From Gammaproteobacteria bacterium (GTDB lineage: Bacteria > Pseudomonadota > Gammaproteobacteria > SZUA-152): 15,835 nt of DNA. The notes below the pieces were generated by a model. It was not told the origin of the DNA. It did not search any database and was given only the letters and a program-made list of their open reading frames with translations. The stretch spans positions 1-15,835 of the forward strand of contig QIGJ01000081.1 in NCBI GenBank assembly GCA_003229995.1, written 5' to 3'. Positions 1 through 15,493 of this stretch are shown in pieces; the first letter of the stretch is position 1, and each line of letters starts with the position of its first letter. Position numbers and translations under genes: made by a program.

Positions 1-3000
1 TCCGGTGTGTCCAGTGCTTTCATCACATCATCAACTGTCTCCAGTGTGCTTTCTTCTGTTATCTCTTCCACCACTTGTTCTTCTGTTGTTGCCGGTTCTT
101 CGGTCTGGATATCCAGCGTTGATGGTGCTTCCTCTAATACTTCAGCCACAGGAGCTTCAATCACGGGGGGCACCGCTACAACAGGTGCCGCCACAGGCTT
201 CGTTTCCACATTCGTTTTTTGGGCTGCTTCAGCCTTGATTGATTCCAAGCGCTCACGTAAACGCGCCATGGCTTCTTTGCTTTTGGCATCCTTTGTATCA
301 GAACTGGCCGATGTTTCAGGTTCAGACTGGCCTATTTCACTAATGGTTGAGGTTACTTTGTCGGTAATTTCACTCAGTGTCTCTGTCCCTTGATTCACCA
401 CAGCCTTCAATTTTTCCGGTGCATCACTGTCGGAAAGATAAAACCAACCCACCCCGGAAATGATCAGAAAAAATAACGCAACGCCTGCCATCCATTTCAC
501 ACTTGGGCTACGTTTCGACTTCCGCGTTGTCACATCTTGCTGTGGGCGAATCGACCGATTGATTTCCTGCGTCTCAAACAATGGCTTTTGCGTCGCCGGT
601 TTATCGTCCAATTTTACTGATGGGTTTTGTGTGACTGTTTCCTGCCGCACTTTTTCCTCGGCAATTTTTTCTGCTTTTTGGTTGCGCTCGTCTTCAACAC
701 CCACAGAGTCTGCCGGTGAACCAACGGCATCGACATGTGGATCATCACGATAGCCCAATGTGGCTTCCCAGATAAAATCGTCCGATACCCACTGGCGCTT
801 TTGTTCCTGTTTTTCGACCTTCATCACTTCACGGGGATCAATCAGGTTTGATCGGTCTTTGGCGCGTTCGGTAATCTCTTTTTCATCCACGGTGATAGTG
901 TGTTCCACTTCGGCAATTTTTTCCGCCGCCGCTTCCAACTCCATAAAGTCATCCAGACCTTCTTCACTTTTGCCAATTGCCTTTAGCGCTGCTTCGCGTG
1001 CTTCGCGGGTCCGACGTGCTTTATCGGCATCGACTTTTTTGCGTTGCTGAATGGCGGCGGCCTTTTTTGCCTTAGCCTGTGCTGCCAGTTTGATTTTGTT
1101 TTTATCCACCTCACGCCGTGCGGCAATAATGGCGCGTTTGTGCTCCAACTCAGCCTGTAAGCGTGAGGCTTCCGCTTCTGCTTTCAGGTGTTTGATTTCC
1201 TCTTCCGCCTCCTGGCGCATTTTTTCGGCGACCTGTTGTGCTCGTACAGCCTCTTCTTTGGCGATACGTGCAACGTCTTCCATTTCCTGTTTGCGGCGTA
1301 TGATTTCTATGTTGGCCAGACGCTCCTGTTCAGCTAATGCTTCGACTTCTTTTTGTTGCTGCGCCTGTTGTTGTGCAATTACTTCGGCAGCTTCGTGTTT
1401 TTTACGCTCGGCATCCATGGCTGCCCAGCTATTTTTTTGTGCCTCTTCGGCTTCAACCTTTTGTGCTGCCGCAAACAGTCGTGCCTGTTTTTCCACTTGC
1501 TCGCGTGCTGCCGTCGCTTCGGCGCGTAACTGCGCCATTTCATTTTCCATTTGCTGGCGAGCTGCTTCGGCCTCATGAGCGCGATTCGATTCTTCGGCGG
1601 CGCGTCGCTCGGCCTCTTCGGCTTCGGCCTGACGACGGATAATTTCATTTTCGGCTCGTTGCCGTGCGGCATCGGCTTCTTCCGCACGCGCCGCTTCTTC
1701 CTCGGCACGACGGGCAATTTCTTCCAACTGAGCCTGTTGTTGAACCAGTTCTTCGGCACGTAGGCTTGCTGCTGCGCGTTCTGCTTCGCTACGTGCGGCA
1801 TCTGCGGCCAAACGTGCCTGTGCCTCAGCGGCCAGACGTGTTTGCTCTGTTTCAGCTTCTAGGCGTTCCAATTCATGCACCGCCTGTAGACGGGCTTCTT
1901 CGGCGGCTTGTGCGCGCAGGGCTTCACGTTCTGCATCAGAACGTGCAGCATCAGCAACACGTTGGGCCTGTTCTTCCAGCTGCATGCGTGCTACTTCGGC
2001 ATCGACCTTCAGCCGCTGAATTTCGGCTTCAGCGTGCAAGCGAGCTTCTTCAGCCGCCCGGGCTCGATGTGCCTCGTCTTCTGCCTTGCTCGCCATTTCT
2101 TCGCGCTCGGTTTGCAAACGGCCCATTTCCTCAGCACGTTGTGCAGCCATTTCACGTTCTGCTTCACTGCGTGCTTGATCCGCTGCCATGCGCGCTTGTG
2201 CTTCGGCTTGAAGTCGCGCCTCTTCTGCCAATTTTGTCAGGCGTTCAACTTCACTCTCTGCGGCTTGCGCGCGGGCTGCTTCGGCTTCGGCTTTGTGTAC
2301 GGCATCTTCCAGTTCTTCCTGTTGCTCGGCGAGATCTTCGGCGCGTTGCTGGGCAGCATCACGCTCAGCTTCGGAGCGCGCTTGATCCGCTGCCAAACGA
2401 GCTTGTTCTTCCATTTCGCGCTGGGTTTCTTCAGCACGGGTACGCATGCGTTCGGCTTCGTCTTCGGCCTGTTGCCGTGCCGTTTCGGCCTGTTGAGTGC
2501 GCATAGCCTCAATTTCGGCTTTTTGCAAAGCGTTTTCAGCGTCTTGTTGATGGCGACTGACTTCTTCAGTACGCTGAAGCGCCATTTTGCGTTCTGTTTC
2601 GGAACGTGCCGCATCAGCGGCCAGCTTGGCCTGTTCTTCAACGCGCCGACGCGCCATTTCGGCTTCGGCCTTGAGGCGGATAATTTCGCCTTCCGTCTCT
2701 TTTTTCGCGGTATCCGCCGACTGACGTGCCTGGGTTTCCATTTCACGACGTGCCTCGGCGGCATCTTGTTTGAGACGCTCAATCTCGCTCTCGGCTTTTT
2801 TCTGTGCTTGCATTGCCTGTTCGGCTCGCGCAGTTTCTACTTCTGCCCGCTGTACGGCGGCTTCACGCTCGGCCTGTTCAGCGGCCAGATCATCGGCTCG
2901 TTTTTGTGCAGAGGCACGTTCTGCCTCACTGCGCGCGTGATCTGCTGCACGCCGTGCTTCGTCTTCGGCTTTTTCGCGTGCAACCGCAGCTTCTTCCTTG

Positions 3001-4322
3001 AGGCGTGCGACTTCGGATAACGCCTGTTTGCGGGCATTATCTGCTGCCTGGGTGCGTTGCATTTCCTGTTGCACACGCTGCTTGGCCTTGCTCATCAAGG
3101 CTTCCACACGACCATCGCTTTCCGCACTGGTTGTGGCTTCGCCATGCAGGCTGACGACGTTATCTTCTGGTTTCAGGGTGGGCACATCCTGCTGTTTTGC
3201 CTGTGTGCTTGTTTGCTCGGGTGTTTGTGTTGTTGTAACAGGTGGTTTGTCTGCCTTTTTTTCCAGTGCAGATGCCGAAACGGCATTCAGACCGTCACGC
3301 AATACAAAAGCATCCAGTCCATACTGGTTAAGCAAAAATACGGCCGCCGCTGCGCGACTGTTACCGTCACTGAAAACAATGTATTTGTGTAATTTGTTCA
3401 GCTTGCGCAGTTGTAAACGCATTTCAGCCAACTGGATATTGCGTGCGCCGGGCAGGCTGCCCCGGGAGTATTCAGCCAGTTTGCGCACATCCAGCCATTG
3501 CACATCCGGGCTTGTCATGGCTTTGGCTTCATCAAAAGACACATATTGCAGGATAGGGGTGACCAGCAGGCTGATAAAATCTTCTTTTGACAGCCGCATC
3601 AGCGTGCCGTCTTCTATCATGGTCACCGAGGCATTACGCTTGCCATTGCTGATCAGCGCTTCTTCACCAAAACCGGTGCCAGGCGTCAAAATTGCCAGTT
3701 TCATTAGCGGTGCATTCGACGCTACCCGGCGGGCAACTTTCGCCTTTCCTTTGGCAATAATGTAATAGTTGTCATCGTTGTCATCCTGGTTGATCACAAC
3801 GGTATTTGCGCGCACGTTGACTTCCTCCATGCGCATCATCATGGACTGGATATTTTCGGCACGCAGTTTGAGGAAGACCTTAGATTGCAGGAAACGACTC
3901 ATCCAGTCGGTGTCATCCTTTTCTTCTACTGTCAGACTGGATACTTCGTAAGATTGTTGTTTGCCGCCCCAGTTGAGTAGCATTTCCAGCAGGTCAGTAT
4001 CGATGTTCAGCAAAGAAACGGGTGTCTTTGCAACAGCGGTAACGGTGTGGGGGGATTCGGAGTCCAGCGGTTGGCGTGCTTGCTTGCTGTTGGCGGCTAA
4101 CTTTGAGGTTTTTCCCGAAGCATCGGTAAGCTCCAGCTTGCCAGCCACAAGATACAGAGTACGGTGATCCCGCTCTCCCTGTTTGAAAATTGTTGCGCCA
4201 GTCACTACTTGGGTCACCCGTGATTTATCACTGAGCTCAGCGAGCATATCAGGAGACAGGTCACACAGTGGCGACAATGATCTCAGCAACTTGTGATCCA
4301 GTAGTTGTTTGGCAGCGCTCAT
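1..4322 (-). CDS. Giant cyclic-nucleotide-binding / rhodanese-like / coiled-coil / transmembrane protein (3' end outside window)
   Basis: One frame stays open from ATG at 4322 to the window edge: 1440 codons, no stop. Residues 12-117 resemble a degenerate cyclic-nucleotide-binding domain. Residues 140-250 are a clear one, with the phosphate-binding-cassette pattern FGEEAL...RNASV near 215-233. Residues 255-345 are a rhodanese fold (WLDVR, GSLPGARNI, final LRDGL) with Ser318 in the catalytic Cys position. Residues 400-1120 are Ala/Glu/Arg/Gln-rich coiled coil. A Trp/aromatic segment (QWVSDDFIWEATLGYR) lies near 1175. One transmembrane helix spans about 1276-1296, preceded by Lys/Arg, so the long N-terminal part should be cytoplasmic. 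The remaining tail is acidic and Pro/Val/Glu-rich. An in-frame TAA directly precedes the ATG, fixing the upstream limit; there is no good Shine-Dalgarno. Function unknown; a membrane-anchored sensory or scaffold rod is my inference. Confidence 0.85.
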   Translation of the reverse strand, partial: MSAAKQLLDHKLLRSLSPLCDLSPDMLAELSDKSRVTQVVTGATIFKQGERDHRTLYLVAGKLELTDASGKTSKLAANSKQARQPLDSESPHTVTAVAKTPVSLLNIDTDLLEMLLNWGGKQQSYEVSSLTVEEKDDTDWMSRFLQSKVFLKLRAENIQSMMMRMEEVNVRANTVVINQDDNDDNYYIIAKGKAKVARRVASNAPLMKLAILTPGTGFGEEALISNGKRNASVTMIEDGTLMRLSKEDFISLLVTPILQYVSFDEAKAMTSPDVQWLDVRKLAEYSRGSLPGARNIQLAEMRLQLRKLNKLHKYIVFSDGNSRAAAAVFLLNQYGLDAFVLRDGLNAVSASALEKKADKPPVTTTQTPEQTSTQAKQQDVPTLKPEDNVVSLHGEATTSAESDGRVEALMSKAKQRVQQEMQRTQAADNARKQALSEVARLKEEAAVAREKAEDEARRAADHARSEAERASAQKRADDLAAEQAEREAAVQRAEVETARAEQAMQAQKKAESEIERLKQDAAEARREMETQARQSADTAKKETEGEIIRLKAEAEMARRRVEEQAKLAADAARSETERKMALQRTEEVSRHQQDAENALQKAEIEAMRTQQAETARQQAEDEAERMRTRAEETQREMEEQARLAADQARSEAERDAAQQRAEDLAEQQEELEDAVHKAEAEAARAQAAESEVERLTKLAEEARLQAEAQARMAADQARSEAEREMAAQRAEEMGRLQTEREEMASKAEDEAHRARAAEEARLHAEAEIQRLKVDAEVARMQLEEQAQRVADAARSDAEREALRAQAAEEARLQAVHELERLEAETEQTRLAAEAQARLAADAARSEAERAAASLRAEELVQQQAQLEEIARRAEEEAARAEEADAARQRAENEIIRRQAEAEEAERRAAEESNRAHEAEAARQQMENEMAQLRAEATAAREQVEKQARLFAAAQKVEAEEAQKNSWAAMDAERKKHEAAEVIAQQQAQQQKEVEALAEQERLANIEIIRRKQEMEDVARIAKEEAVRAQQVAEKMRQEAEEEIKHLKAEAEASRLQAELEHKRAIIAARREVDKNKIKLAAQAKAKKAAAIQQRKKVDADKARRTREAREAALKAIGKSEEGLDDFMELEAAAEKIAEVEHTITVDEKEITERAKDRSNLIDPREVMKVEKQEQKRQWVSDDFIWEATLGYRDDPHVDAVGSPADSVGVEDERNQKAEKIAEEKVRQETVTQNPSVKLDDKPATQKPLFETQEINRSIRPQQDVTTRKSKRSPSVKWMAGVALFFLIISGVGWFYLSDSDAPEKLKAVVNQGTETLSEITDKVTSTISEIGQSEPETSASSDTKDAKSKEAMARLRERLESIKAEAAQKTNVETKPVAAPVVAVPPVIEAPVAEVLEEAPSTLDIQTEEPATTEEQVVEEITEESTLETVDDVMKALDTP
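1775..2950 (-). repeat. Coding repeats of about 76 residues in the coiled coil
   Basis: The motif AADxARSEAER and variants recurs at about residues 459, 568, 644, 713, 789 and 839 of the giant protein. A weaker copy (SADTAKKETEG) lies near 535. The spacings are 76, 33, 76, 69, 76 and 50 residues; 69 is 76 minus one heptad. At DNA level the copies are diverged (for example around 2170-2205 and 2375-2410), so the expansion is not recent. Because they are in frame inside a long open frame they are protein repeats, not a CRISPR or intergenic array. Confidence 0.7.
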
Positions 4323-4339
4323 TTATTTAATCATCGGTT

Positions 4340-4506
4340 CTAGGAGCCTGTCGGACTTAGGATGAATCTACGGCGGAAAATTCATTTTGGCCCATTTTTT
4401 CGATCCTTTTCGTTGAATATGTGCAATCTTCGCCTCAAACGATCAAAAAAATGGACTCAAAATGATTTTCCCTCGTTACGATCCCCTAAGTCCGACAGGC
4501 TCCTAG
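4340..4506. repeat. MITE-like imperfect palindrome with 22-bp perfect terminal inverted repeats
   Basis: The outer ends, 4340-4361 and 4485-4506, are exact reverse complements (core GAGCCTGTCGGACTTAGG). Inner arms also pair: 4375-4388 with 4459-4471 (one indel) and 4392-4405 with 4441-4454 (one mismatch), leaving a loop of about 35 nt. The whole 167 bp therefore folds into a long hairpin. It has no coding capacity, as expected of a miniature inverted-repeat element or a long REP-type repeat. Which transposase family might move it cannot be told here. It ends 17 bp before the giant gene's start codon, so it is transcribed in, or displaces, that gene's leader. Confidence 0.75.
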
Positions 4507-4546
4507 CAGGCTAAAAAGACAGCAAAGTCGGCGACTTTCCCTGCAA

Positions 4547-4552
4547 AGTATA
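4547..4552 (-). promoter_or_regulatory. Candidate -10 box for the giant gene
   Basis: TATACT reads on the minus strand at 4552-4547. There is no good -35 hexamer at 16-18 nt, as in activator-dependent promoters. The predicted start near 4540 would put the centre of the CRP-like site (4632.5) at about -92, a helical-phase position used by class I CRP promoters. This is inference from spacing only. Confidence 0.35.
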
Positions 4553-4624
4553 ACGGCAGAGAAGACGAAAGGTTTACAGCAAAAAACCCTGATTTGTCGT
4601 GTAAAGTTGGCCGACTGGCCGTAC

Positions 4625-4640
4625 CGTGACGAGTGTCACA
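4625..4640. promoter_or_regulatory. CRP/Vfr-type operator candidate
   Basis: The sequence CGTGA-CGAGTG-TCACA matches the CRP consensus TGTGA-N6-TCACA at 9 of 10 defined bases and is nearly symmetric. It lies in the intergenic region upstream of the giant cyclic-nucleotide-binding-domain gene and downstream of the SPOR gene. CRP family sites are well established in gammaproteobacteria; whether this organism has a CRP or Vfr protein is not visible here. Confidence 0.5.
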
Positions 4641-4650
4641 ACGTGTCAGA

Positions 4651-4671
4651 AGCTGACCCTGAGGGTCAGCT
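4651..4671. terminator. Hairpin downstream of the SPOR gene, possible terminator
   Basis: A 9-bp perfect stem (AGCTGACCC / GGGTCAGCT) with a 3-nt loop lies about 100 bp beyond the SPOR gene stop. No run of T follows it on the minus strand, so it is not a classical intrinsic terminator. It could be a Rho-associated 3' end, an mRNA stabiliser or an operator. Confidence 0.3.
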
Positions 4672-4774
4672 GTGATAGCGCATAAAAAGACTAAAATATG
4701 AATTACTACTTATAACCGCCCAATACACCGGAACGATTGTCCGAGAATTTAAGCTCTATTCCTTAGCCCTTAAT

Positions 4775-5350
4775 TCACATTTTAGCCTTGAGCACAATTG
4801 GGTCTATGGATTGTGCCCGCAAACGGTTACGCACTATGTCCATTTTGCGTGCGCTTTGGAAAGGGCCAACCCGTACCCGATACCAGGTCTGGCTGTTATT
4901 AATGGTGACGCGCTGTACATGAGACTCAATATTATTTAATGCCAACTGGGCGCGCATGCGATCAGCATCTTTCGTGCGGCGGAAAGAGCCCACTTGCAAA
5001 TAATAGGTAATGGCATCCTCCGTTTTGCGCTCGCGTTCCGTTGCCAGCTCTTGCGGTGGGATAAACACTTCCATTTCCGGCAATAAGTTATAAAAGTCGA
5101 AGCGTGGTTTTTCGTCTGTTTGTTCCTTCAGTTTTTTATTCATTGTTGTTTGTTGGGGGGCAGCTTGACTCTTTTCCACCACCGGTGCAGGTGTTGCACG
5201 CTCACTACCCATTTGTAAATCATCTCTGAGATACACCAGTAGCGCGACCAGTAAGCCAATCAATAAACCACCGAGCATCCACACCCAGCCCGGTGTTGGC
5301 TTGGGAGGTTTGCTTTTGGGTCTGGCAGTATTTTTGTAATCTTTGGCCAT
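4775..5350 (-). CDS. SPOR-domain inner membrane protein, FtsN-like
   Basis: A 191-residue bitopic protein. It has a short basic cytoplasmic N-terminus (residues 1-20), one membrane helix at about 22-40 (GWVWMLGGLLIGLLVALLVY), a low-complexity periplasmic linker, a conserved-looking short motif FDFYNLLPEMEV at 85-96, and a SPOR domain at about 115-190 (YYLQVGSF..., WYRVRVGPF...). SPOR domains bind denuded septal peptidoglycan, so a role at the division site is likely. A SPOR gene directly after argS is a familiar arrangement; in Pseudomonas that gene is the FtsN homologue. The protein is shorter than E. coli FtsN (319 aa), and I cannot tell FtsN from a DedD-like paralogue. The gene starts 15 nt after the argS stop, so the two are probably cotranscribed. 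Confidence 0.88.
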   Translation of the reverse strand: MAKDYKNTARPKSKPPKPTPGWVWMLGGLLIGLLVALLVYLRDDLQMGSERATPAPVVEKSQAAPQQTTMNKKLKEQTDEKPRFDFYNLLPEMEVFIPPQELATERERKTEDAITYYLQVGSFRRTKDADRMRAQLALNNIESHVQRVTINNSQTWYRVRVGPFQSARKMDIVRNRLRAQSIDPIVLKAKM

Positions 5351-5365
5351 AACCGGGACAGTGCT

Positions 5366-7138
5366 TTACATGGTTTCCGGTGCCGATACGGCCAATAGGC
5401 CCAAGCCGTTAGCAAGCACCTGCCGTGTCGCTTTGATCAAACACAGGCGCGCATCACGCACGGTGACATCATCCACCAAAAATGGATGGGCGTTGTAATA
5501 TGTGTGGAAATCATTGGCCAGCTCGCGCAGGAAATGCGCCAACTGATGCGGCTCATGATTCAGCGCTGCAGCTTCCACCACTTCCGGGTAGCGTGAAAGT
5601 CTGGTCAGCAGGGCTTGTTCATGTGTTTCACTTAATATCGCTAAATTGGAAAGACCGTTGTCGCTATTGTGAGTCAAGGCTTTTTCAGCCAGTTGGCGGA
5701 GCACACTGCATATTCGTGCGTGGGCATATTGAATGTAATACACCGGGTTGTCGCTGCTCTGAGACTTGGCGAGATCGAGATCAAAATCCATGTGCTGTTC
5801 GCATTTGCGCATCACGTAGAAAAATCGTGCCGCATCGTTGCCTACTTCTTCGCGCAATTCACGCAAGGTGACAAATTCACCGGAGCGGGTAGACATCTGC
5901 GCTTTTTTGCCGCCGCGATACAAAATTGCAAACTGTACCAGCAGTACGTCAAGCTTGTCGGCATCGTCACCCAGCGCAGTAAGTGCGGCTTTAACGCGTG
6001 GCACATAGCCGTGATGATCGGCACCCCACACGTCAATAACACGATCAAAACCACGCGCCAGTTTTTGCATATGATACGCAATATCTGATGCAAAGTAGGT
6101 GGTCTGGCCGTTGTCACGTACCACTACGCGGTCTTTTTCATCCCCAAAATCAGTGGAACGAAACCACCATGCGCCGTTTTTTTCGTACAGGTGACCCGCC
6201 TCTTTGAGACGTTCAATGGCACGTCCTATTGCACCCGACTCAGTGAGCGAGCGTTCGGAAAACCATTCTTCGTAAACCACACCGAAATCTTCGAGGTCAC
6301 GGCGGATGTCATCAAGAATACTGTTGAGCCCGGCATCAAACACCGTGCGAAAGGCGGTATCACCCAACAGCTCTTTAGTGCGATTGATCAGGGCATCGAT
6401 GTATTGCTCTTTGTCGCCACCTTCGCTCTCGTCGGCGGGCAGATTCGTTAGTGCGATTTGTGCCGTATGTCGAAAAGCATCACCATGTTCACGCTGCAAC
6501 GTGGCAGCAATATCCCAGATGTAATCCCCCTTGTAACCGTTAACGGGAAACGGGAGTTCATCGTTGACATTTTCACCGCACAGGTCAAGGTAACGTAGCC
6601 ATACGCTGGTGGCGAGAATATCCATTTGTCGCCCCGCATCGTTGACATAATATTCACGGTGTACCTTGAAGCCCACTGCCGCCAACAGGTCCGCCACTGC
6701 CGCACCATAAGCTGCACCACGGCCGTGGCCCACATGCAGCGGGCCGGTGGGATTGGAAGAGACAAACTCGACCTGCACGGATTTATCACCACCGATGGTG
6801 GAGTGCCCGTAGGCCTTGCCTGTTTCCAGCACCGTCCCCACTACGGCGTACACTGCCGCATCAGTGAGCGTAAAATTAATAAAACCTGGCCCGGCAATGT
6901 CGACTTTTGCGACCTGATTGGAAACGGGCAATGCGGCAACAATTTTCTTTGCCAGATCACGGGGTTTGCAACGTACCGGTTTAGCCAGCATCAGCGCAAT
7001 ATTGCAGGCGTAGTCGCCGTGACTGGCGTCGCGGGTGCGATCAATCTGGATGTTCGGTGACAGATCCGCAGGTAACACGTCCTGAGATTTCAGTGTATCG
7101 ATGGCGGTTTGAATCAGGGAAGCGAGCTGTGGTTTCAT
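5366..7138 (-). CDS. argS: Arginyl-tRNA synthetase
   Basis: A 590-residue class I aminoacyl-tRNA synthetase that charges tRNA-Arg with arginine using ATP in the cytoplasm. The N-terminal arginyl-tRNA-specific domain covers about residues 1-90. The HIGH signature appears as HVGH at 135-138 inside [15 protein letters not shown]. The KMSKS-type loop is QMSTRSG near 414-420, in the degenerate form common for ArgRS. The C-terminal helical DALR anticodon-binding domain covers about 465-590. Length is normal for the family and no key residue is missing. The ATG at 7138 gives a family-typical N-terminus ([13 protein letters not shown]), though the Shine-Dalgarno is weak. The SPOR gene follows after 15 nt. 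Confidence 0.97.
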
Positions 7139-7167
7139 TTTGGCAGTTGTGGCGGGGAAGGCACGAC

Positions 7168-7197
7168 ATTATCGCTTGAGCATGTGATCAAGTACAA
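7168..7197 (-). promoter_or_regulatory. Candidate argS promoter
   Basis: On the minus strand, TTGTAC (7197-7192) and GATAAT (7173-7168) are separated by 18 nt. The -10 matches TATAAT at 5 of 6 positions; the -35 is poor. The start of transcription would fall about 25 nt upstream of the argS ATG. Weak evidence on its own. Confidence 0.3.
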
Positions 7198-7362
7198 GCC
7201 GACATCCATTTTTCTGCTATTGCAACCCGGTTTCTCACCGATCATGAAATCTGGACACGTATTTCACCGGGAAAACTGTTGGTATTTGTGGATAGAAAAT
7301 CTCTGGATTATAGGTATGCCCACCTCAATGAGCCCGCAGACATATTGGTTGCCTCTGACTAG
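7180..7362 (+). pseudogene. Possible 3' remnant of a truncated gene (uncertain)
   Basis: After a TGA at 7177-7179, a plus-strand frame runs 60 codons to TAG at 7360-7362 with no ATG. Its translation has a protein-like composition, for example HEIWTRISPGKLLVFVDR and YRYAHLNEPADILVASD. The only possible starts (TTG or GTG near 7280-7290) are far inside. The TAG is followed at once by an AGAGGA Shine-Dalgarno and the ATG of the small frame at 7373, like an operon junction. This would fit the tail of a gene whose 5' part was lost when it came to lie next to argS. I do not recognise the sequence, and an open frame of this length can arise by chance. Confidence 0.22.
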
Positions 7363-7372
7363 AGGATAAACC

Positions 7373-7528
7373 ATGAGTATCAGTGCGACGTTGGAGTCAG
7401 CCAGTTTTTATGCGTCGAAATTCTTTACAGTGATTGTTTTTGGCCATGTTGTAAGCATCTATCTTATTGTAAATACTAATAATAATTTATTTGGCACGAT
7501 GTATGCTTATGATCAGGCAGCCAAGTAA
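7373..7528 (+). CDS. Possible small membrane protein, 51 residues
   Basis: ATG at 7373 is preceded by AGAGGA (7361-7366) at a spacing of 6 nt, a strong ribosome-binding site. The frame encodes 51 residues ending in TAA at 7526-7528. It has an amphipathic start, one hydrophobic segment at about 17-33 (FFTVIVFGHVVSIYLIV) and an Asn-rich, tyrosine-containing tail. No family is recognised. It lies between argS and the PEP-CTERM gene, on the PEP-CTERM strand, and its last codons overlap the sigma-54 promoter of that gene. It could be a genuine small inner-membrane protein or the second half of a decayed operon with the remnant at 7180-7362. Confidence 0.35.
   Translation: MSISATLESASFYASKFFTVIVFGHVVSIYLIVNTNNNLFGTMYAYDQAAK
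7490..7507 (+). promoter_or_regulatory. Sigma-54 (RpoN) promoter upstream of the PEP-CTERM gene
   Basis: The sequence TTTGGCACG-ATGT-ATGCT fits the sigma-54 consensus YTGGCACG-N4-TTGCW with one mismatch in the -12 element. The -24 GG (7493-7494) and -12 GC (7505-7506) are separated by exactly 10 nt, the spacing sigma-54 requires. Transcription would start near 7518, giving a leader of about 44 nt before the ATG at 7562. PEP-CTERM genes are known to be controlled by the PrsK/PrsR two-component system, in which PrsR is a sigma-54-type activator. Confidence 0.72.
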
Positions 7529-7561
7529 ACCTATAGTTTCACTGTTGAGGTAAGAAGTATC

Positions 7562-8260
7562 ATGTTTAAACATTTAACCGCCGTCACACTTTTTTCAGTC
7601 ACATTATTGAGTCTGTCTTCACCGATTTCTGCTGGATTGATTCTTGAGTCATATGCATCGGGCACAGTAACATCCAGCACAATTGGTGGTTACGCGATGA
7701 CTGATTTTGCCATCACCAACGGCGTAGGCGGTGGCACAACGAATGTGCTGTCACCCATCAGTGGTTCGCTAAATTTTCTTGATCAAAATAACAACTCTTT
7801 GTCCATGAGTCGTCGTTTAGCGAATGATGTAAGCTGGTGGAACAATGGTGAAGCCAACGATTATGATATCTACACAACAAGCAACTATCTGATAACGATC
7901 TTGCTTCCAGAAAACACGCGCGCTTTTTCTTTTAGCGTTGGCGCTAACCTGAGCAGCAGCGGTAACAATGCATGGCTGACTGCGACAGAGTCCGGCGGCT
8001 TAGGAATCGACGATGAGTATTGGTTCAATGTTAACCGTAATAACACTCCTGGTTTTGGTCTTTACGCCGACAATAGTAATGGTCGTTGTTCGGCCATTAC
8101 TTCCGTTACCATTGACCCAGAGTATTGGGGGCTAGGTAATTTCTCAATCAATCAGGATCCTTGCGCAACCACAACCAGCATACCAGAGCCTTCATCTGTT
8201 GCATTACTTGCTTTAGGCTTGCTCGGTTTTAGTCTTTTTCGCCGTAAAAATAACGCATAG
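7562..8260 (+). CDS. PEP-CTERM sorting domain protein
   Basis: A 232-residue exported protein. Residues 1-24 form a signal peptide (hydrophobic core, then SPISAG). The C-terminus is a PEP-CTERM tripartite signal: PEP at 208-210, a hydrophobic helix (SSVALLALGLLGFSLF) and the basic tail RRKNNA. Such proteins are recognised by an exosortase, cleaved at the PEP region and released to the surface or the exopolysaccharide matrix. The mature part is rich in Asn, Ser, Thr and Gly, as expected of a beta-rich extracellular domain, and has two Cys (GRCSAI, QDPCATT) that may form a disulfide. The ligand or function of the ectodomain is unknown. GAGG at 7547-7550 is the ribosome-binding site. It is the only identified plus-strand gene apart from the doubtful small frames just upstream; no exosortase or EPS gene is in view. 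Confidence 0.9.
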   Translation: MFKHLTAVTLFSVTLLSLSSPISAGLILESYASGTVTSSTIGGYAMTDFAITNGVGGGTTNVLSPISGSLNFLDQNNNSLSMSRRLANDVSWWNNGEANDYDIYTTSNYLITILLPENTRAFSFSVGANLSSSGNNAWLTATESGGLGIDDEYWFNVNRNNTPGFGLYADNSNGRCSAITSVTIDPEYWGLGNFSINQDPCATTTSIPEPSSVALLALGLLGFSLFRRKNNA

Positions 8261-8290
8261 AAACCATCGGGTTTCGCCCGGGGTTGATTG

Positions 8291-8329
8291 ACACAAAATG
8301 CCACTCGATATGAGTGGCGTTTTTTGTGT
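8291..8329. terminator. Bidirectional intrinsic terminator between the PEP-CTERM gene and ubiB
   Basis: GCCACTC (8300-8306) pairs with GAGTGGC (8312-8318) around a 5-nt loop and is followed by TTTTTT (8320-8325) on the plus strand. The stem is extended by ACACAAAA pairing with TTTTGTGT, so the minus strand also ends in a T-rich flank. It lies 30 bp after the PEP-CTERM stop and about 88 bp beyond the ubiB stop, between convergent genes. Confidence 0.85.
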
Positions 8330-8416
8330 GGCAGCCTAAGGAGTGGAACACAATAACTTATACTATGCTCGTGGCGATTGAGATTTAGGTGTCACTGCAC
8401 GTCCTCCGGGTGTACG

Positions 8417-10096
8417 TCAACTGCGGTGACTTGGCCAGGAAAATAACAGGACAAAACCACCCAGCCCACCCAGCATCCAGGTCAGGAAGGGTGCATTGCC
8501 TAGCATGGAGGTTGTTGTGGGGTCGGCATAGACGTAAATGATGGAGGCGCTGATGACAAAAGCAGAACCGACAATGGCGCGGAACAGACGGCGATTGGCG
8601 CGACGGATTTCCCAGCGCATTGCGGTTAGTTCTTTTAGCGCATTACCGGAATCAGCCCCCGTTTTTTGACTGCCTTGATGTTCTGTCTGCTGTGTCAACC
8701 ATTGATGCAACAGCACAGGAATTTCCGGCAGTTTTTCGCTCCATTCCGGCGCGTTGCGGCGCAGTGAGCGTATAATCGAGCGCACACCTATCTGTTCACT
8801 CATCCAGCGTTCAAGATAAGGTTTGGCCGTTTGCCACAAGTCCAGTTCGGGGTATAACTGTCGACCTAAACCTTCGATGTTCAACAGGGTTTTTTGCAAC
8901 AGTACCAGTTGTGGCTGTATTTCCATATTGAAGCGCCGTGCCGTTTGAAACAGGCGCAATAATAAAAGACCAAATGAAATATCTTTCAGGGGACGTTCAA
9001 AAATGGGTTCGCACACGGTGCGAATCGCGGCTTCAAATTCTTCCACCCGCGTATCTTCCGGCACCCAGCCGGATTCCACATGCAGCTCTGCCACCTTGCG
9101 ATAGTCACGCTGAAAGAATGCCAGGAAGTTACCCGCCAGATAATGCTGGTCATCATGACTCAGTGTGCCCATGATGCCAAAATCTACGGCAATATAACGG
9201 CCGCTAGGCTCAACAAAAATATTACCGGGATGCATGTCGGCATGAAAAAAATTATCGCGAAATACCTGGGTGAAAAAGATTTCCACACCGTGCTCAGAGA
9301 GTGTTTTAAGATCAACACCCTGTTTTTTCAACATGTCCACATTACTCACAGGAATACCGTGGATACGCTCCATCACCATCACATTGCCCCGTGTCAATGG
9401 CCAATGGACTTCAGGAACATATAACAAATCAGAATCCGCGAAGTTACGTCGCAATATGGAGGCCGAACTGGCTTCACGCATCAGGTCCAGTTCATCCAGT
9501 ATGGTTTTTTCAAACTCTTCCACCACTTCGAGTGGGCGCAGGCGTCGGCCGTCGGCCCAGTAGCGCATCGCCAACTCGGCGAGGGTATGCATCAAAGCAA
9601 GATCACGACGAATGGTTTTTTCAATATCGGGACGCACCACTTTGACCACCACTTCCCGACCATCCAGCAAACTGGCGGTGTGTACTTGTGCGATGGACGC
9701 CGAGGCCAGTGGCTGTTCGTCAAAACGTGCAAACACTTCCGTCACTGATTGACCGAGACTCTCTTCAATGATCATGCGTGCTTGACTGCCGGGAAAAGCG
9801 GGGACGTTATCTTGTAACTGTGCTAGTTCATCCGCAATATCGTCGGGTAACAAATCACGGCGCGTAGAAAGTATCTGGCCAAACTTGATAAAAATGGGAC
9901 CAAGATCTTCCAGACTGCGACGAATACGCGCTCCCCGGGGGAGTCTTTCACGCCAAAACCAGCGCCAGGGGGACAGGTATTGTAAAAACCGCACCGGACG
10001 GAACAGGTGGGTGGTAAAAATGATTTCATCGAGCCCGTGGCGACCCAAAACATTATTGATGTGTAATAAACGCAATGCCTGCCGAAACCCGATCAC
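8417..10096 (-). CDS. ubiB: UbiB, ubiquinone biosynthesis atypical kinase/ATPase
   Basis: A 559-residue member of the ABC1/ADCK/UbiB protein-kinase-like family. It is an ATPase needed for aerobic ubiquinone biosynthesis and works with the UbiJ-UbiK accessory factors and the Ubi complex. Visible motifs are KFGQ at 71-74 (the family's KxGQ), the Ala-rich nucleotide loop ASASIAQVH at 131-139, Lys152 in [15 protein letters not shown] at 285-292 with Asp287 and Asn292, and DFG at 305-307. Two C-terminal membrane helices (about 508-526 and 537-554) match the family. The start is GTG at 10096, overlapping the ubiJ TGA as GTGA, which points to translational coupling. Length is near that of E. coli UbiB (546 aa). 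Confidence 0.96.
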
Positions 10097-10743
10097 GCGA
10101 CCTCTCCGTTATTTTTGGGTGTCGGCTTGTTTTTCAGCGAGTTTTCCAACCGCCGTACACGCGCTTCCATACGGTCCACATCGGTACGTAACACATCCAC
10201 TTGTGATATATAGTTTTCCACTTCATCACGATTGGGTAGCGTTTCATTTTCTTCCTGTAAATATTCTGCAACATTCTGCCCCAGCGTATCCACAGTCTGT
10301 TGCCCCCAGGACAAGGCACTGCGCACCGCATTGCCCAGCTTATGTGCGACCAGGTCACCCGTAAAATGTGAGAGGTGTTCTTCCCAGTCAATGTCCAGCG
10401 TATCGAGAATTTCGCTAAATTGTTGCCCTAGTTCCACATCGCCACTGATTTCCACATCGCCTGCAAACAATACGTCACCCGCATGTTTGACCAGCCCCAT
10501 GCGCATCAATGCCACAGGCGTGCCACGCAACACCGTGTCTGGTTCACCTTCAATGCGACCATAAATGGATAATTTATCCGGAGCGGGAATCAGGTACAGC
10601 GACACATCCAACCCACGCACTTCGATGGCAATCACTTTCCCCTGGAGGTCTTGTAGGCGGGCAAGGGTGTCTTCGTCTAACTGCAAGACGCGGTTTACGG
10701 CCATTTCGATACTGGCGGTAATTGCCGTGGGCAGGTGATTCAC
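10093..10743 (-). CDS. ubiJ: UbiJ, SCP2-domain ubiquinone biosynthesis accessory factor
   Basis: A 216-residue protein with an SCP2-like lipid-binding domain at about residues 10-115 ([19 protein letters not shown], ...[34 protein letters not shown]) and a C-terminal coiled coil at about 165-205 ([21 protein letters not shown]). UbiJ binds the hydrophobic ubiquinone intermediates and, with UbiK, supports the soluble Ubi complex. The sequence pattern, length and position directly before ubiB all fit. Its start overlaps the RDD gene's end by 4 nt, and its stop overlaps the ubiB GTG. Confidence 0.93.
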
Positions 10744-11219
10744 CGTAATTCACCCATCAATTGCGTAAGGCTTTTTTGCGATTCATCATCAGCTTCAATA
10801 CCCGCTTTGTATAACACCACGGTGTTGGCAATTTTGTCGTGAAAAGCTTGTTTGCGTTTGTCCCGCGCCACCCATAAAAAACCCAGCAATAAAGGCAGAA
10901 TGGAGGCAAGATAGGCAATATAACGCAAAGCAGCCTGTTTGACTGACATGGGTTTAAAGCTGTCCGCATCCACGACCTGGCAATCCAGCAGCAACTTTCC
11001 CGGTGTGCCAAGGAATTTGAGCCACAAAATAATGGTTAACAAAAACCCCACCGCTGTTCGCACTAAACCGTCGCTGGTCAATAATCCTGCGCCCATAACA
11101 ACCGGTCCCATCAGCAGACCAATAATAATCGTAAACAGCAGGCTATCGATAAGCGTTGCACCCACCCGCCGCCAGAAACCAGCATACTGAAACGGGGCGG
11201 CTGGCCGATTAACGTTCAC
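10740..11219 (-). CDS. RDD-family membrane protein within the ubi operon
   Basis: A 159-residue multi-pass membrane protein of the RDD family. Arg17/Arg18 and Asp25 ([15 protein letters not shown]) lie in the first conserved segment. Hydrophobic helices are at about 23-45, 52-70 and 100-117, and the conserved [16 protein letters not shown] segment is at 71-86, with [13 protein letters not shown] near 126-138. RDD proteins are mostly uncharacterised; some have been linked to ion transport, which I cannot infer here. It overlaps ubiE and ubiJ by 4 nt on each side, so it is an integral member of the operon. That placement suggests, but does not prove, a role connected with membrane quinone synthesis. 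Confidence 0.88.
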
Positions 11220-11986
11220 AATTTGTAACCCCGATGCAGGGCAACGATGCCTCCACTGAGATTAAAATAATCACAGCGTTCAAGACCCGCTGCTTCCATC
11301 ATCGTTTTCAACTCATCCTGACTGGGATGCATGCGAATGGATTCGGCCAGATAACGATAGCTTTCTTCATCTTTGGCCACTAGTTTGCCCATCAACGGCA
11401 ATAATTTGAATGAATAGGTATCGTAAATCGCGGCAAGTCCCGGTGTAACGGGTTTGGAAAATTCCAACACCAGCAACCGGCCACCCGGTTTGAGTATGCG
11501 CTGCATAGAGTGCAATGCAGCATCTTTGTCGGTGACATTACGCAAGCCAAAGGCAATAGTGATGCAATCAAAATAATGGTCAGGAAACGGCAGGCATTCG
11601 GCATTAGCCTGTACATATTCCATGTTAGACAACACACCGCGATTAATCAGCCGCTCGCGTCCCACCCGGAGCATGGACTCATTGATGTCCGCTAGCACCA
11701 CTTCACCACGGTCTCCCACCAGCGCGGAAAATTTTGCCGCCAGGTCGCCCGTACCACCGGCAATATCCAGCACCCGTTGGCCCGCACGCACGCCGCTCAT
11801 TTCGATGGTGTAACGCTTCCACAGACGATGCACGCCCATGGACATCAGGTCATTCATGACATCATAATTGTTGGCAACAGAATGAAATACCCCGGCAACC
11901 CTGTCTGCTTTTTCTTCGGCGCGTACCTGCTCGTAACCAAAGTGCGTGGTGTTTTTCGCGTCTTCGTTATCGGCTGTATTTCTCAT
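11216..11986 (-). CDS. ubiE: UbiE, ubiquinone/menaquinone C-methyltransferase
   Basis: A 256-residue class I SAM-dependent methyltransferase that C-methylates demethylmenaquinone and the corresponding ubiquinone intermediate (2-methoxy-6-polyprenyl-1,4-benzoquinol). Family signatures are [17 protein letters not shown] at 41-57, motif [10 protein letters not shown] at 72-80, acidic LADIN at 98-102, the [10 protein letters not shown] segment near 127-136, and [15 protein letters not shown] near 165-179. Length matches E. coli UbiE (251 aa). It heads the ubiE-RDD-ubiJ-ubiB run. The ATG at 11986 has only a weak ribosome-binding site, but the motifs require a start near it. Confidence 0.96.
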
Positions 11987-12020
11987 ATCAATGATGTTGC
12001 CTTTAAATGTGAATTAAGCG

Positions 12021-12048
12021 ATAAAAATGTCCAAACGAACAAAATCAA
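12021..12048 (-). promoter_or_regulatory. Candidate ubiE promoter
   Basis: On the minus strand, TTGATT (12048-12043) and TTTTAT (12026-12021) are 16 nt apart, with an AT-rich leader before the ubiE ATG. The match is modest (4 of 6 in each box), so treat it as tentative. Confidence 0.28.
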
Positions 12049-12132
12049 TGACTTTCACCATAACTTTCACCGCAAAGGGCACGAAGGAACGCGAAGACCG
12101 GAAACGGTGATTTAGCCCTTAATCCACGTTTT
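12047..12132. repeat. Dispersed-repeat-like sequence upstream of ubiE
   Basis: The stretch contains TTTCACCGCAAAGGGCACGAAGGAACGCGAAG, given here as adjoining pieces TTTCACCGCAAAGGGCAC and GAAGGAACGCGAAG, which resembles a widespread intergenic repeat type in proteobacteria (CGCAAAG/CACGAAG strings). ACTTTCACC is duplicated just before it. The adjoining TTAGCCCTTAATCCACGTTTTA segment recurs, with two mismatches, at the 3' end of the SPOR gene (about 4764-4785). The element lies between the DUF971 gene and ubiE. Only genome-wide comparison can confirm the family. Confidence 0.4.
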
Positions 12133-12159
12133 ATTGATGGTTCCCCGACATTAAGTCAC

Positions 12160-12522
12160 TCACACCTTGCGTTTATACCCGGCCTTTTCCAAACGATTCA
12201 GATACTCGGCCCACAATTCAGATTTATCACGCCCCAATGTATACAATATGTCCCAGGAATAAATACCGGTGTTGTGTCCGTCATCAAATTCCAGTTGGAT
12301 GGCGTAATTACCCACCGGTTCAATGCCTGCAATATTGACATTTTCCTTACCCGTTTGCAGCACTTCCTGACCGGGACCGTGTCCCCGTACTTCTGCCGAG
12401 GGTGAGTACACACGCAGGTATTCGCAGGGGTATTCAAAATGACTGTCGTCGTCAAAAACAATTTCCAGTACACGCGAGGCTTGGTGTAAATTGATGTCTG
12501 TAGGCTTTGGAGCCGTGCTCAT
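12160..12522 (-). CDS. DUF971 / GBBH-like N-terminal domain protein
   Basis: A 120-residue protein that is essentially one gamma-butyrobetaine-hydroxylase-like N-terminal domain (DUF971). Recognisable segments are PTDINLHQASRVLEIVFDD, FEYPCEYLRVYSPSAEV, VGNYAIQLEFDDGHNTGIYSWDILYTLG and a final charged helix. The catalytic dioxygenase part of GBBH is absent, as is usual for these stand-alone bacterial proteins, whose function is not established. Location next to hslU and ubiE is commonly seen. GGAGAA lies 6 nt before the ATG at 12522, a good ribosome-binding site, and the gene begins 32 nt after the hslU stop, so cotranscription with hslVU is likely. Confidence 0.9.
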   Translation of the reverse strand: MSTAPKPTDINLHQASRVLEIVFDDDSHFEYPCEYLRVYSPSAEVRGHGPGQEVLQTGKENVNIAGIEPVGNYAIQLEFDDGHNTGIYSWDILYTLGRDKSELWAEYLNRLEKAGYKRKV

Positions 12523-12554
12523 GGTGATTCTCCGTTAATCGCTATTGGTCGGCG

Positions 12555-13934
12555 TTATAAAATATACCGGCTCAAATCTTCGTTTTTGGCCAGTTCGCCA
12601 AGGTGCTTGTCCACGTATTCCACATCCACGGTGACATGGGTACCGCTTTGATCTGCGGCAACAAAGGAGATTTCTTCCAGCAAGCGTTCCACAACGGTGT
12701 GCAAACGGCGCGCGCCAATATTGTCGGTGCGTTCATTCACCTGCCAAGCCACTTCAGCGATCCGCGAAATCCCATCATCGGTGAAGGTGAGTGTGACACC
12801 TTCGGTGGCCAACAGAGCGCTGTACTGTTCTGTTAATGAGGCATCAGGTTCGGTGAGAATGCGTACAAAATCTTCCACGCTCAACGCGCTCAGTTCAACA
12901 CGAATGGGTAAGCGCCCCTGCAATTCAGGAATCAGGTCCGATGGCTTGGATAAATGAAACGCACCGGAGGCAACAAACAAAATATGATCTGTTTTTACCA
13001 TGCCGTATTTGGTGGACACCGTGCAGCCTTCCACCAGTGGCAACAAATCCCGTTGCACACCTTCACGCGAGACATCTGGTCCGGAGCTTTCCCCACGTTT
13101 GCAGATTTTGTCCATCTCATCGAGAAACACAATACCGTTTTGTTCGACATTATCCACGGCACATAATTTAATTTCTTCTTCGTTGAGCAACTTACCTGCC
13201 TCGTCATCGGTCAGCAGTTTAAAGGCGTCTTTGATTTTCAGTTTGCGGGTGGTGGTGCGGCCACTGCCCATATTCTGAAACAACCCCTGTAACTGGTTGC
13301 TCATTTCTTCCATGCCTGGCGGTGCCATGATTTCCACTCCCACAGGACTGGCGCTTAACTCCACTTCAATTTCCTTGTCGTCGAGATCACCTTCCCGCAA
13401 CTTTTTACGAAATTTCTGCCGGGTGCTCGATTCTTCAGTGGATTCTTTCTCCGCTCCATCGTCACCCGTACCAAAACCAAAATTACCGCCGCGTGCCGGG
13501 CGCAACAGGATGTCAAGAATGCGGTCCTCTGCCGCTTCTTCAGCGCGGAAGCGTACTTTTTTCACTTCCTGTTCCCGCACCAGTTTGATGGAAATATCAA
13601 TCAGGTCACGAATAATGGATTCCACATCGCGCCCCACATAGCCCACCTCGGTAAATTTGGTGGCTTCCACTTTCACAAACGGTGCATTGGCCAGTCTGGC
13701 CAAACGTCGGGCAATTTCAGTTTTGCCTACACCAGTAGGACCGATCATCAAAATATTTTTCGGGGTAATTTCGTTCTTCAGCGCATCATCCACCTGCGAG
13801 CGCCGCCAGCGGTTGCGCAGTGCAATGGCCACAGCACGTTTGGCATCGTCCTGGCCGATAATGTGCTTGTCCAGCTCCTGCACGATTTCGCGAGGGGTCA
13901 TTTGTGAGCTGATTTCTGTTGATATTTTTGACAT
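12555..13934 (-). CDS. hslU: HslU, ATPase/unfoldase subunit of the HslVU protease
   Basis: A 459-residue AAA+ ATPase that unfolds substrates and feeds them to the HslV peptidase. Walker A is GPTGVGKT at 65-72, the pore loop GYVG at 98-101, Walker B IVFLDE at 268-273, and the ELQGRLPIR segment with the arginine-finger region near 333-341. The intermediate (I) domain lies between about 110 and 240 and contains a Gly/Glu-rich stretch near 149-170. The C-terminal tail EDLSRYIL is the HslV-activating end; the conserved final hydrophobic residues are present. The start ATG overlaps the hslV stop as TAATG, so translation is coupled. Length is near E. coli HslU (443 aa). Confidence 0.97.
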
Positions 13935-14500
13935 TAACTTGCCTTCCCTTTCCCTGACTCATCCGGATGTAATTCTTCGATGGTGAAATGATCGTTGGTA
14001 TAAACACAAATTTCCGAGGCAATGGTTAATGCCTTTTCGCAGATGGTGCGTGCGTCCAGCTCGGTATTTTGCATCAATGCGCGTGCAGCGGCCTCAGCAA
14101 AAGAGCCTCCGGAGCCGATGGCGATCACATCATGCTCAGGCTCGATCACATCACCATTGCCGGAAATCACCAGCGAAGCGGTTTCATCGGCCACCGACAA
14201 CAGCGCTTCCAGTCGGCGCAACATGCGGTCAGTACGCCAGTCTTTGGCCAGCTCCACCGCAGCACGCGTTAAATGCCCCTGATGCTTTTCCAGCTTGCCT
14301 TCAAAACGCTCAAACAAGGTGAAGGCATCCGCCGTGCCACCGGCAAAACCGGCAATCACCTTGTCATGATACAAGCGCCGCACTTTGCGCGCATTGCCCT
14401 TCATGATGGTATTGCCCATCGACACCTGACCGTCGCCACTGATCACCACTGACCCGTTACGACGCACCGAAAGAATTGTAGTACCGTGAAATTGTTCCAA
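13934..14500 (-). CDS. hslV: HslV, peptidase subunit of the HslVU protease
   Basis: A 188-residue N-terminal-nucleophile peptidase of the proteasome beta family, forming double hexamers capped by HslU. The sequence begins [16 protein letters not shown]. Thr7 would be the catalytic Thr1 after removal of a six-residue propeptide; Asp23 and Lys39 then correspond to the conserved Asp17 and Lys33, and GSGGS lies near 128-132. E. coli HslV lacks this short propeptide, whereas related MEQF/MEQYHG forms occur in other proteobacteria. The start codon is TTG at 14500. It is supported by GAGGAA at 14511-14506, 5 nt upstream, and by the propeptide match; the ATG farther upstream is in another frame. Confidence 0.96.
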
Positions 14501-14505
14501 CGTGA

Positions 14506-14511
14506 TTCCTC
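14506..14511 (-). promoter_or_regulatory. Ribosome-binding site fixing the TTG start of hslV
   Basis: GAGGAA on the minus strand lies 5 nt upstream of TTG at 14500. No ATG in the hslV frame precedes the catalytic Thr, so this site decides the start. Confidence 0.75.
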
Positions 14512-14569
14512 ATAAACTCGATAAAAACAGGGTGGAAAGTTTACACCATATCGACAGCCAACAGGCTGT

Positions 14570-15480: not shown

Positions 15481-15493
15481 CGCGCCTTGCCGA

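Follow-up and report, generated by a model that had tools for sequence, protein, structure and literature searches.

A giant CNB–CNB–rhodanese rod protein under predicted CRP control in Gammaproteobacteria and its possible link to an Agl/Glt-type envelope complex

The window, that is, the whole stretch of DNA analysed here (15,835 nucleotides; contig QIGJ01000081.1, positions 1 to 15,835, of the gammaproteobacterial assembly GCA_003229995.1), opens with a giant gene on the reverse strand, the product of which consists of two cyclic-nucleotide-binding (CNB) domains, a rhodanese-like domain, a long rod, one transmembrane helix and an acidic tail. Gene calls throughout are mechanical open reading frames (ORFs). 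As stated in the original prediction, which had been made from this sequence alone, the gene is a single open frame of at least 1440 codons. It starts with ATG and runs off base 1 of the window. Base 1 is the end of the contig (C3), and the genome itself (2.2 Mb in 392 contigs) is 81.6% complete. Because seven relatives with 90–92% identical cores are 1534–1544 aa long, about 100 residues of the window protein are missing. These relatives lie on other contigs and share the same length, which rules out an assembly artefact or a fusion of separate genes, the caveat attached to the prediction.

The claim that the protein has no recognised counterpart was wrong as to homologues, and orphan status is ruled out by protein, contig and class-genome searches. 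A protein search with residues 1–400 as the query, in which the best 7991 candidates were scored, gave at least 166 matches, of which 120 were listed. The contig scan confirmed 555 family loci, the best 80 of which were used for all locus counts. Furthermore, the core alignment had a match at E ≤ 1e-20 in 196 of the 369 genomes of the class sample, where the model includes rod columns and weak matches may be rod-only. No published description of the CNB–CNB–rhodanese giant family was found in searches of Creative Commons-licensed papers, which cover part of the work in print. The family comprises several forms, namely proteins with a long rod, a membrane helix and an acidic tail (the window type), proteins with a shorter rod and a membrane helix encoded behind TolQ-TolR-TolR-AgmX genes, proteins with a long coiled coil and an FGE-sulfatase tail, long or ~800-aa proteins for which no membrane helix is predicted, and proteins that consist of the head only (~350 aa). 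A head-alone paralogue is also encoded in the genome of the window (L006 1198..2256). In a tree of 56 cores, the clade of the window protein (window clade; 13 rows, support 98/92) and the motor-linked clade (hereafter sister clade; 19 rows, 100/99) are together split from the other 24 cores with support of 100/99, and a quick tree of 84 cores gave the same split, with a Shimodaira–Hasegawa-like approximate likelihood ratio (SH-aLRT) support of 94 for the window clade. The 80 loci comprise 19 of the window clade, 27 of the sister clade and 34 remaining ones; loci absent from the trees (near-copies and partial ones) were placed in a clade by a representative or by their neighbours, and each neighbour count uses the loci with enough flank. 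Relatives outside the window clade include proteins of Thiohalophilus, Thiohalobacter and Thiogranum. One contig titled as a Crenarchaeota-group archaeon (L029; LFWV01000005.1) carries priA, argS and SPOR genes together with a gammaproteobacterial giant gene and is probably misbinned.

A Pfam scan of the window protein found two cNMP_binding stretches and one rhodanese domain, and the AlphaFold2 model of the head (mean predicted local distance difference test score (pLDDT) 83; predicted template modelling score (pTM) 0.58) delimited the three domains, for which matches were found in the PDB (Table 1). The core alignment has 202 rows, consisting of the window protein, its short paralogue, the 120 listed proteins and the 80 loci, and some proteins are present twice. 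CNB2 is modelled as a PKA/PKG-type CNB fold and carries the phosphate-binding cassette GFGEEALISNGKRNASVTM, in which Glu220 and Arg229 are kept in all of these rows, repeated proteins included. With the G-E and the Arg of the cassette in place, CNB2 is predicted to be ligand-competent. On the other hand, CNB1 lacks the G-E of the cassette in the alignment and has His92 at a position occupied by Arg in 177/202 rows, and the ligand residues are kept by the second domain only. Both of the proposed CNB-type domains were thus recovered by Pfam, although CNB1 is degenerate. The proposed rhodanese-like domain is likewise present according to Pfam and AlphaFold2, but the Cys of an active sulfurtransferase is replaced by Ser318 in the window protein and by Ser in all 20 window-clade rows. 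The Cys is present in 23/27 sister-clade rows, 7/7 FGE-tailed proteins and 20/20 short cores. In the PDB comparison, the nearest fold match of the rhodanese domain was an NADH-dependent persulfide reductase.

The rod is free of Pro and rich in Ala (25%), Glu (20%), Arg (12%) and Gln (9%), with a weak 76-residue repeat (autocorrelation 0.28 against a mean of 0.147). If it were straight and fully helical, 680 residues at 0.149 nm per residue would extend about 101 nm. The heptad periodicity of its large hydrophobic residues is only z = 1.7 over shuffled composition by a local measure. The same measure gives –0.6 to 3.8 for the other eight rods of the window clade, and 15.9–23.9 for eight relatives with an FGE tail. 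The predicted ~700 residues of coiled coil were therefore not borne out in the canonical sense. Since z rises to 5.2 once Ala is counted as apolar, the long Ala-rich helix of the rod may be single or may form a coil of the Ala type. Between the rod and the membrane helix lie two motifs conserved in the window clade, WVSDDFIWEATLGYRDDP and a shorter one. The aromatic/acidic motifs before the membrane differ by clade and are similarly placed (WVSDDFIWEATLGYRxDP versus riLEGxeDiFiFkxP), and in both clades they could serve as docking sites. Only one hydrophobic segment is present. Its flanks, of 15 residues each, carry net charges of +4 (N-terminal side) and –1 (C-terminal side), which agrees with the proposed topology of sensor and rod in the cytoplasm and tail outside. 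The visible 144 residues of the tail are acidic, as had been read (33 Asp and Glu, 13 Lys and Arg). No tail domain was recognisable in two full-length relatives (P0002, P0004) or in the precomputed Pfam annotation of near relatives, so the conserved tail domain hoped for is missing from the window clade, and an FGE-sulfatase domain occupies this place in another branch. Taken together, the initial observations were partly confirmed: the frame, the Pfam domains, the single transmembrane helix and the acidic tail hold, but a canonical coiled coil, an active rhodanese and a CNB1 cassette do not.

Table 1. Features of the giant gene and its upstream region, in window coordinates
Feature	Position	Strand	Basis or remark
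Giant ORF, 1440 aa visible	3..4322	-	ORF read; 3' end beyond contig end
CNB1 (residues ~4–118), degenerate: no G-E, His92 for usual Arg	3969..4313	-	Pfam, AlphaFold2, alignment
CNB2 (residues ~138–255), PKA/PKG-like	3558..3911	-	Pfam, AlphaFold2, PDB fold matches
CNB2 phosphate-binding cassette GFGEEALISNGKRNASVTM (residues 217–235; E220, R229)	3618..3674	-	Core alignment
Rhodanese-like domain (residues 258–350)	3273..3551	-	
Rhodanese active-site loop IVFSDGNSRA, Ser318 at expected catalytic Cys	3351..3380	-	Alignment
Pro-free Ala/Glu/Arg/Gln rod (residues 386–1162), weak 76-residue repeat	837..3167	-	
Conserved pre-membrane motif WVSDDFIWEATLGYRDDP (residues 1178–1195)	738..791	-	Alignment of 18 window-clade proteins
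Conserved pre-membrane motif EINRSIRPQ (residues 1253–1261)	540..566	-	Alignment of 18 window-clade proteins
Transmembrane helix (residues 1278–1296)	435..491	-	Hydropathy 2.03, positive-inside
Acidic tail, presumably periplasmic (residues 1297–1440, incomplete)	3..434	-	
MITE-like element of 163 bp, with 18-bp terminal inverted repeats that match perfectly	4342..4504	.	Between CRP-like site and ATG
Possible –10 element TATACT	4547..4552	-	Read from sequence
CRP-like site TGTGACACTCGTCACG, one mismatch to TGTGA-N6-TCACA	4625..4640	-	Pattern scan; footprint over relatives
SPOR-domain protein encoded upstream, not counted as a component	4775..5350	-	Pfam

Upstream of the giant gene lies a CRP-like site, TGTGACACTCGTCACG, the only one in the window (chance expectation 0.64). 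Such sites were defined as TGTGA-N6-TCACA with at most one mismatch in the 260 bp that precede the start of the match, and were found at 16/18 window-clade loci (5 perfect) and 26/27 sister-clade loci (20 perfect), together 42/45. They occur at 9/34 other loci and before 12/496 neighbouring ORFs of at least 100 aa at the same loci. Six control patterns applied at the same level were found at 0/18 window-clade and 0/34 other loci, and twice in the sister clade (one locus each for two patterns). After dereplication, the site is present in 9/9 window-clade and 23/24 sister-clade rows, compared with 0.6% of 1650 shuffled upstream regions. These rows have 9 and 20 different N6 spacers, respectively, and the half-sites thus appear to be kept while the spacer drifts. 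Outside the two clades, the site occurs in 6/14 long forms and in 3/20 head-alone forms, and for the FGE-tailed loci the count is 5/7; a phylogenetically independent comparison of the site with the rod architecture had one independent pair only. CRP itself is encoded in the genome of the window (NCBIfam equivalog, 355.5 bits, cut-off 266). With a conserved upstream site and CRP in the same genome, the predicted control of the giant gene by CRP is well supported.

A promoter scan of the upstream region found neither a sigma-70 pair nor a terminator. The leader contains an element resembling a miniature inverted-repeat transposable element (MITE), the terminal repeat of which has 12 matches in the same genome (at most 2 mismatches; backward control 1), including three inverted pairs 145–146 bp apart. 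This element is absent from the same place in six relatives; it lengthens the leader of the window gene, the expression of which it may affect. A short inverted repeat, GACCCT-C-AGGGTC (window 4655–4667), directly precedes the CRP-like site and is nearly unchanged in six relatives.

Neighbours were counted over the 80 loci with hidden Markov models (HMMs) built from our own clusters, the identity of each cluster being taken from a Pfam/NCBIfam scan of one representative. In the sister clade, the giant gene sits behind TolQ-TolR-TolR-AgmX genes, in a gene cluster that encodes a single TolQ, two copies of TolR, a TonB-like protein of the AgmX/GltG type and TPR proteins; the AgmX-type cluster was assigned by NF033768, with a partial match of GltG. 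AgmX lies at most 1.3 kb upstream in 19/25 loci and TolQ within 3.5 kb in 16/22 loci, a cyclase gene (FHA-cyclase HMM) follows within 6 kb downstream in 17/18 loci, and a convergent DUF2914 gene lies within 900 bp in 18/22 loci. DUF2914 is also the neighbour in 9/15 window-clade loci, and is thus common to both clades. At the 34 loci outside both clades, AgmX was found in 0/32, DUF2914 in 0/24 and a cyclase within 6 kb in 7/13. Because DUF2914 occurs in 98/369 class genomes, its adjacency rather than its presence is informative. The DUF2914 proteins have a signal-like N-terminal stretch, judged by eye, and their domain is modelled as an immunoglobulin-like (Ig-like) sandwich (mean pLDDT 85), which makes a periplasmic location of the product probable. 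In the alignment of 16 FHA-cyclases, two Asp and a Lys/Asp pair are kept at the positions that we take to be the two metal-binding Asp and the adenine-selecting pair. In the genome of the window, the class III cyclase domain has three matches, and one of these proteins resembles the FHA-cyclases (29% by BLAST). Three of the seven cyclase-bearing outside loci are head-alone genes (L040, L059, L062) with a convergent CHASE2-adenylate cyclase gene at 14–15 bp downstream. The label "CHASE2-AC" for genes beside AgmX was rejected, as that BLAST cluster is mixed and includes kinase-like members. At L105, an 888-aa protein (12663–15329) encoded beside TolQ-TolR-TolR-AgmX reads by eye as a Ser/Thr kinase followed by a membrane segment and an FGE-sulfatase-like domain, again a cytoplasmic signalling domain joined to a perhaps periplasmic FGE domain.

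In the window clade, the immediate neighbours differ from those of the sister clade. A SPOR gene lies within 900 bp in 16/18 loci, and SPOR and argS were rejected as partners, the site being judged incidental; SPOR was found at 0/25 sister-clade loci. Of the conserved neighbours that the prediction had suggested examining, those of the window were thus uninformative, but those of the sister clade were informative. A PEP-CTERM protein gene (window 7562–8260, forward strand) lies between argS and ubiB, and in four close relatives (L012, L014, L016, L025) a gene of the same cluster (cluster 43) also lies near argS. The motor genes of the window clade are instead found elsewhere in the genome. The AgmX-type domain is over the cut-off in 17/19 window-clade genomes, against a class base rate of 84/369; the two others are G001, where the contig stops soon after the third TPR gene, and G018, a 0.7-Mb record. 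The domain was also over the cut-off in 8/10 sister-clade genomes tested (of 27 loci) and in 3/11 genomes with other long forms. In the genome of the window, contig C132 carries three TPR genes (one of them partial), a TolQ gene and two TolR genes, and codes for the first 181 residues of AgmX. The absence of the motor, which a domain scan without an AgmX match had suggested, is ruled out, as the end of C132 cuts off the AgmX gene ahead of the part for the C-terminal domain, and this genome is predicted to encode an Agl/Glt-type complex. In the class sample, AgmX was found in 70/196 genomes with a core match versus 14/173 without (Fisher p 8.5e-11, relatedness ignored). CRP-like sites were found upstream of none of the AgmX (43), TPR632 (27), FHA-cyclase (25), "CHASE2-AC" (16) and ApbE (4) genes, 1/36 TolQ genes and 2/35 TPR950 genes (one locus seen twice). 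Sites close to the CRP consensus, such as TGTGA-N6-TAACA, precede the first gene of the Agl/Glt-like cluster (c16) in 6/18 cases (L131, L133/L035, L036, L046 and L090, of which L133 and L035 are the same sequence), and because of these sites the motor cluster may be CRP-controlled in some lineages.

On the basis of these results, the giant is proposed to be a CRP-controlled, cAMP-binding, inner-membrane-anchored rod that regulates or places an Agl/Glt-type envelope complex (TolQ-TolR-TolR-AgmX with TPR proteins), a reading to which an even chance may be given as a whole. Its cAMP/CRP part is well supported, because a cAMP effector whose level is set by cAMP–CRP is the simplest account of the invariant ligand residues, the CRP-like sites and the nearby adenylate cyclases. 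The link to the motor is moderately supported by comparative genomics, and the Agl/Glt-type complex is the leading partner because of the sister-clade linkage and the genome content shared in the window clade. In the proposed mechanism, adenylate cyclases would raise the level of cyclic AMP (cAMP), and cAMP–CRP would switch on the giant gene. Binding of cAMP to CNB2 could then alter the hold of the CNB1–CNB2–rhodanese head on a cytoplasmic partner. The rod, about 100 nm long if helical throughout and anchored to the inner membrane by its single transmembrane helix, would hold the head at the cytoplasmic face of this membrane or up to ~100 nm away from it, and the aromatic/acidic motifs near the helix could serve for docking to the motor. 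The acidic tail would extend into the periplasm and may there be bound by the Ig-like product of the DUF2914 gene that adjoins the giant gene in many relatives. As a result, the envelope complex could be gated or placed according to cAMP. It is more tentatively suggested, as a possibility that we hold to be rather less probable, that cAMP acts directly on the proton-driven TolQR/AgmX-type trans-envelope machine through this membrane-fixed rod while CRP sets the supply of rods, which would make the complex a relative of the gliding motor of Myxococcus that is controlled by a cyclic nucleotide and distributed across Chromatiales-like Gammaproteobacteria. The initial interpretation is thus partly supported: the domain order, the topology and above all the linkage of a small-molecule signal to the membrane, much strengthened by the CNB2 ligand residues, the CRP-like sites and the cyclases, remain, but the lack of a counterpart, the coiled coil and the tail domain do not.

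Several results weigh against the proposed regulation of the motor. Near the giant gene of the window clade, AgmX (0/17), TolQ (0/13) and the cyclase (0/13) are all missing. DUF2914 stands beside it in only 9/15 loci of this clade and was not found in the genome of the window, which is incomplete and in which the gene lies at a contig end. AgmX was not over the cut-off in the sister-clade genomes G020 (L034, with no match) and G022 (L042, the isolate Thiohalophilus thiocyanatoxydans, with a sub-threshold match). Across giants of all kinds among the matches listed, which extend to about E 1e-139, AgmX was found in 24/62 genomes, a weak association (p 0.002), and the co-occurrence counts ignore the relatedness of the genomes. 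As for the regulation by CRP, the site of the window, with its one mismatch, is by itself no rarer than chance and is separated from the start codon by the MITE-like element; the site is missing in L020 and L023 of the window clade and has two mismatches in L091.

Much of the same evidence could be explained by a CRP-controlled, cAMP-binding positional scaffold, for instance a polar one, that anchors cytoplasmic proteins to the inner membrane, with the TolQR–AgmX linkage being incidental. All of the cAMP/CRP evidence fits such a scaffold, as do the window-clade genes unlinked from AgmX and the two of ten sister-clade genomes tested that lack a clear AgmX, and a cAMP receptor at the cell poles, CbpA of Pseudomonas aeruginosa, has been described (PMC7247823, excerpt). 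This parallel is drawn by description and not by sequence, however, and an incidental linkage accounts poorly for AgmX within 1.3 kb in 19/25 sister-clade loci versus 0/32 outside both clades, or for its presence in 17/19 window-clade genomes versus 84/369 in the class. We therefore consider this scaffold somewhat unlikely, although it is the most serious of the competing explanations.

An improbable explanation is that the protein is a mechanical spacer or cytoskeleton-like rod whose CNB and rhodanese domains are assembly modules that bind no nucleotide. Since CNB1 is without a cassette and the catalytic Cys is missing from the rhodanese domain in 20/20 window-clade rows, two of the three head domains do look like pure binding modules, and a long Pro-free rod, 680 residues of which would span ~101 nm as a continuous helix, would suit such a role. 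The invariance of E220 and R229 in 202/202 rows would be unexpected for an inert module, however, as would the CRP-like site upstream and the nearby cyclase. Less probable still is a sulfur or persulfide sensor, in which the rhodanese domain carries or reads a persulfide and the CNB domain modulates it. In favour of this function are the persulfide reductase as nearest fold, the Cys kept in most sister-clade rows (23/27) and in all FGE-tailed and short proteins (7/7 and 20/20), and the names of some hosts outside the window clade (Thiohalophilus, Thiohalobacter, Thiogranum), which are those of thiocyanate or sulfur bacteria; the Ser in all 20 window-clade rows speaks against it. The regulatory rod remains the preferred reading. 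It would represent a second, membrane-anchored cAMP effector, apparently under the control of CRP itself, in a family whose core is matched in 196/369 class genomes, and for most bacteria a review names CRP as the only mediator of cAMP action (PMC7247823, excerpt).

Among related and known proteins, the short CNB–CNB–rhodanese proteins (~350 aa, such as the paralogue L006) share the whole head with the giant, including the ligand residues of CNB2; both Pfam domains are present in 118 of the 120 listed matches. They differ in having no rod, membrane helix or tail, in keeping the Cys (20/20) and in having a CRP-like site at 3/20 loci. The FGE-sulfatase-tailed proteins (1342–1867 aa among the matches listed) also have the head and a long rod in common with the giant, and as a rule a single membrane helix is predicted for them. 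They have a canonical heptad coil (z 15.9–23.9), an FGE-sulfatase domain after the helix and the Cys (7/7), and fall outside the window and sister clades on both trees; the CRP-like site, at 5/7 loci, is a trait that they share with the clades of the giant. CbpA, likened to the giant by description and not by sequence, is a cAMP receptor other than the CRP homologue, as is proposed for the giant; another paper, also used in excerpt, calls it a DNA-binding protein.

The closest known machinery is the Agl/Glt core complex of Gammaproteobacteria, which consists of AglR, AglQ, AglS, GltD, GltE, GltG and GltC (Luciano et al. 2011, PMC3169522). This is the same kind of set as the sister-clade cluster of TolQ, two TolR, an AgmX/GltG-type protein and TPR proteins. 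In the excerpt of that paper used here, the function of the core in Gammaproteobacteria is called unknown and the core is thought unlikely to drive motility alone; the excerpt mentions one unnamed additional gene and no CNB or rhodanese protein. The homology to the Myxococcus parts rests on the AgmX-type domain only (NF033768, with the partial GltG match). Relative to this complex, the giant is an added neighbour of the cluster, located elsewhere in the genome in the window clade, and the family could provide a handle on the question left open in 2011, the role of the Agl/Glt core complex in Gammaproteobacteria. AglZ of Myxococcus xanthus is a coiled coil with a pseudo-receiver domain, and is not known to have CNB or rhodanese domains or a transmembrane helix. 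It forms foci at motor sites, and aglZ is counted as regulatory and not structural (PMC3169522, excerpt). By this description, AglZ works as a rod protein with a regulatory head at an Agl-type motor, and the same is proposed for the giant, in which the head would respond to cAMP.

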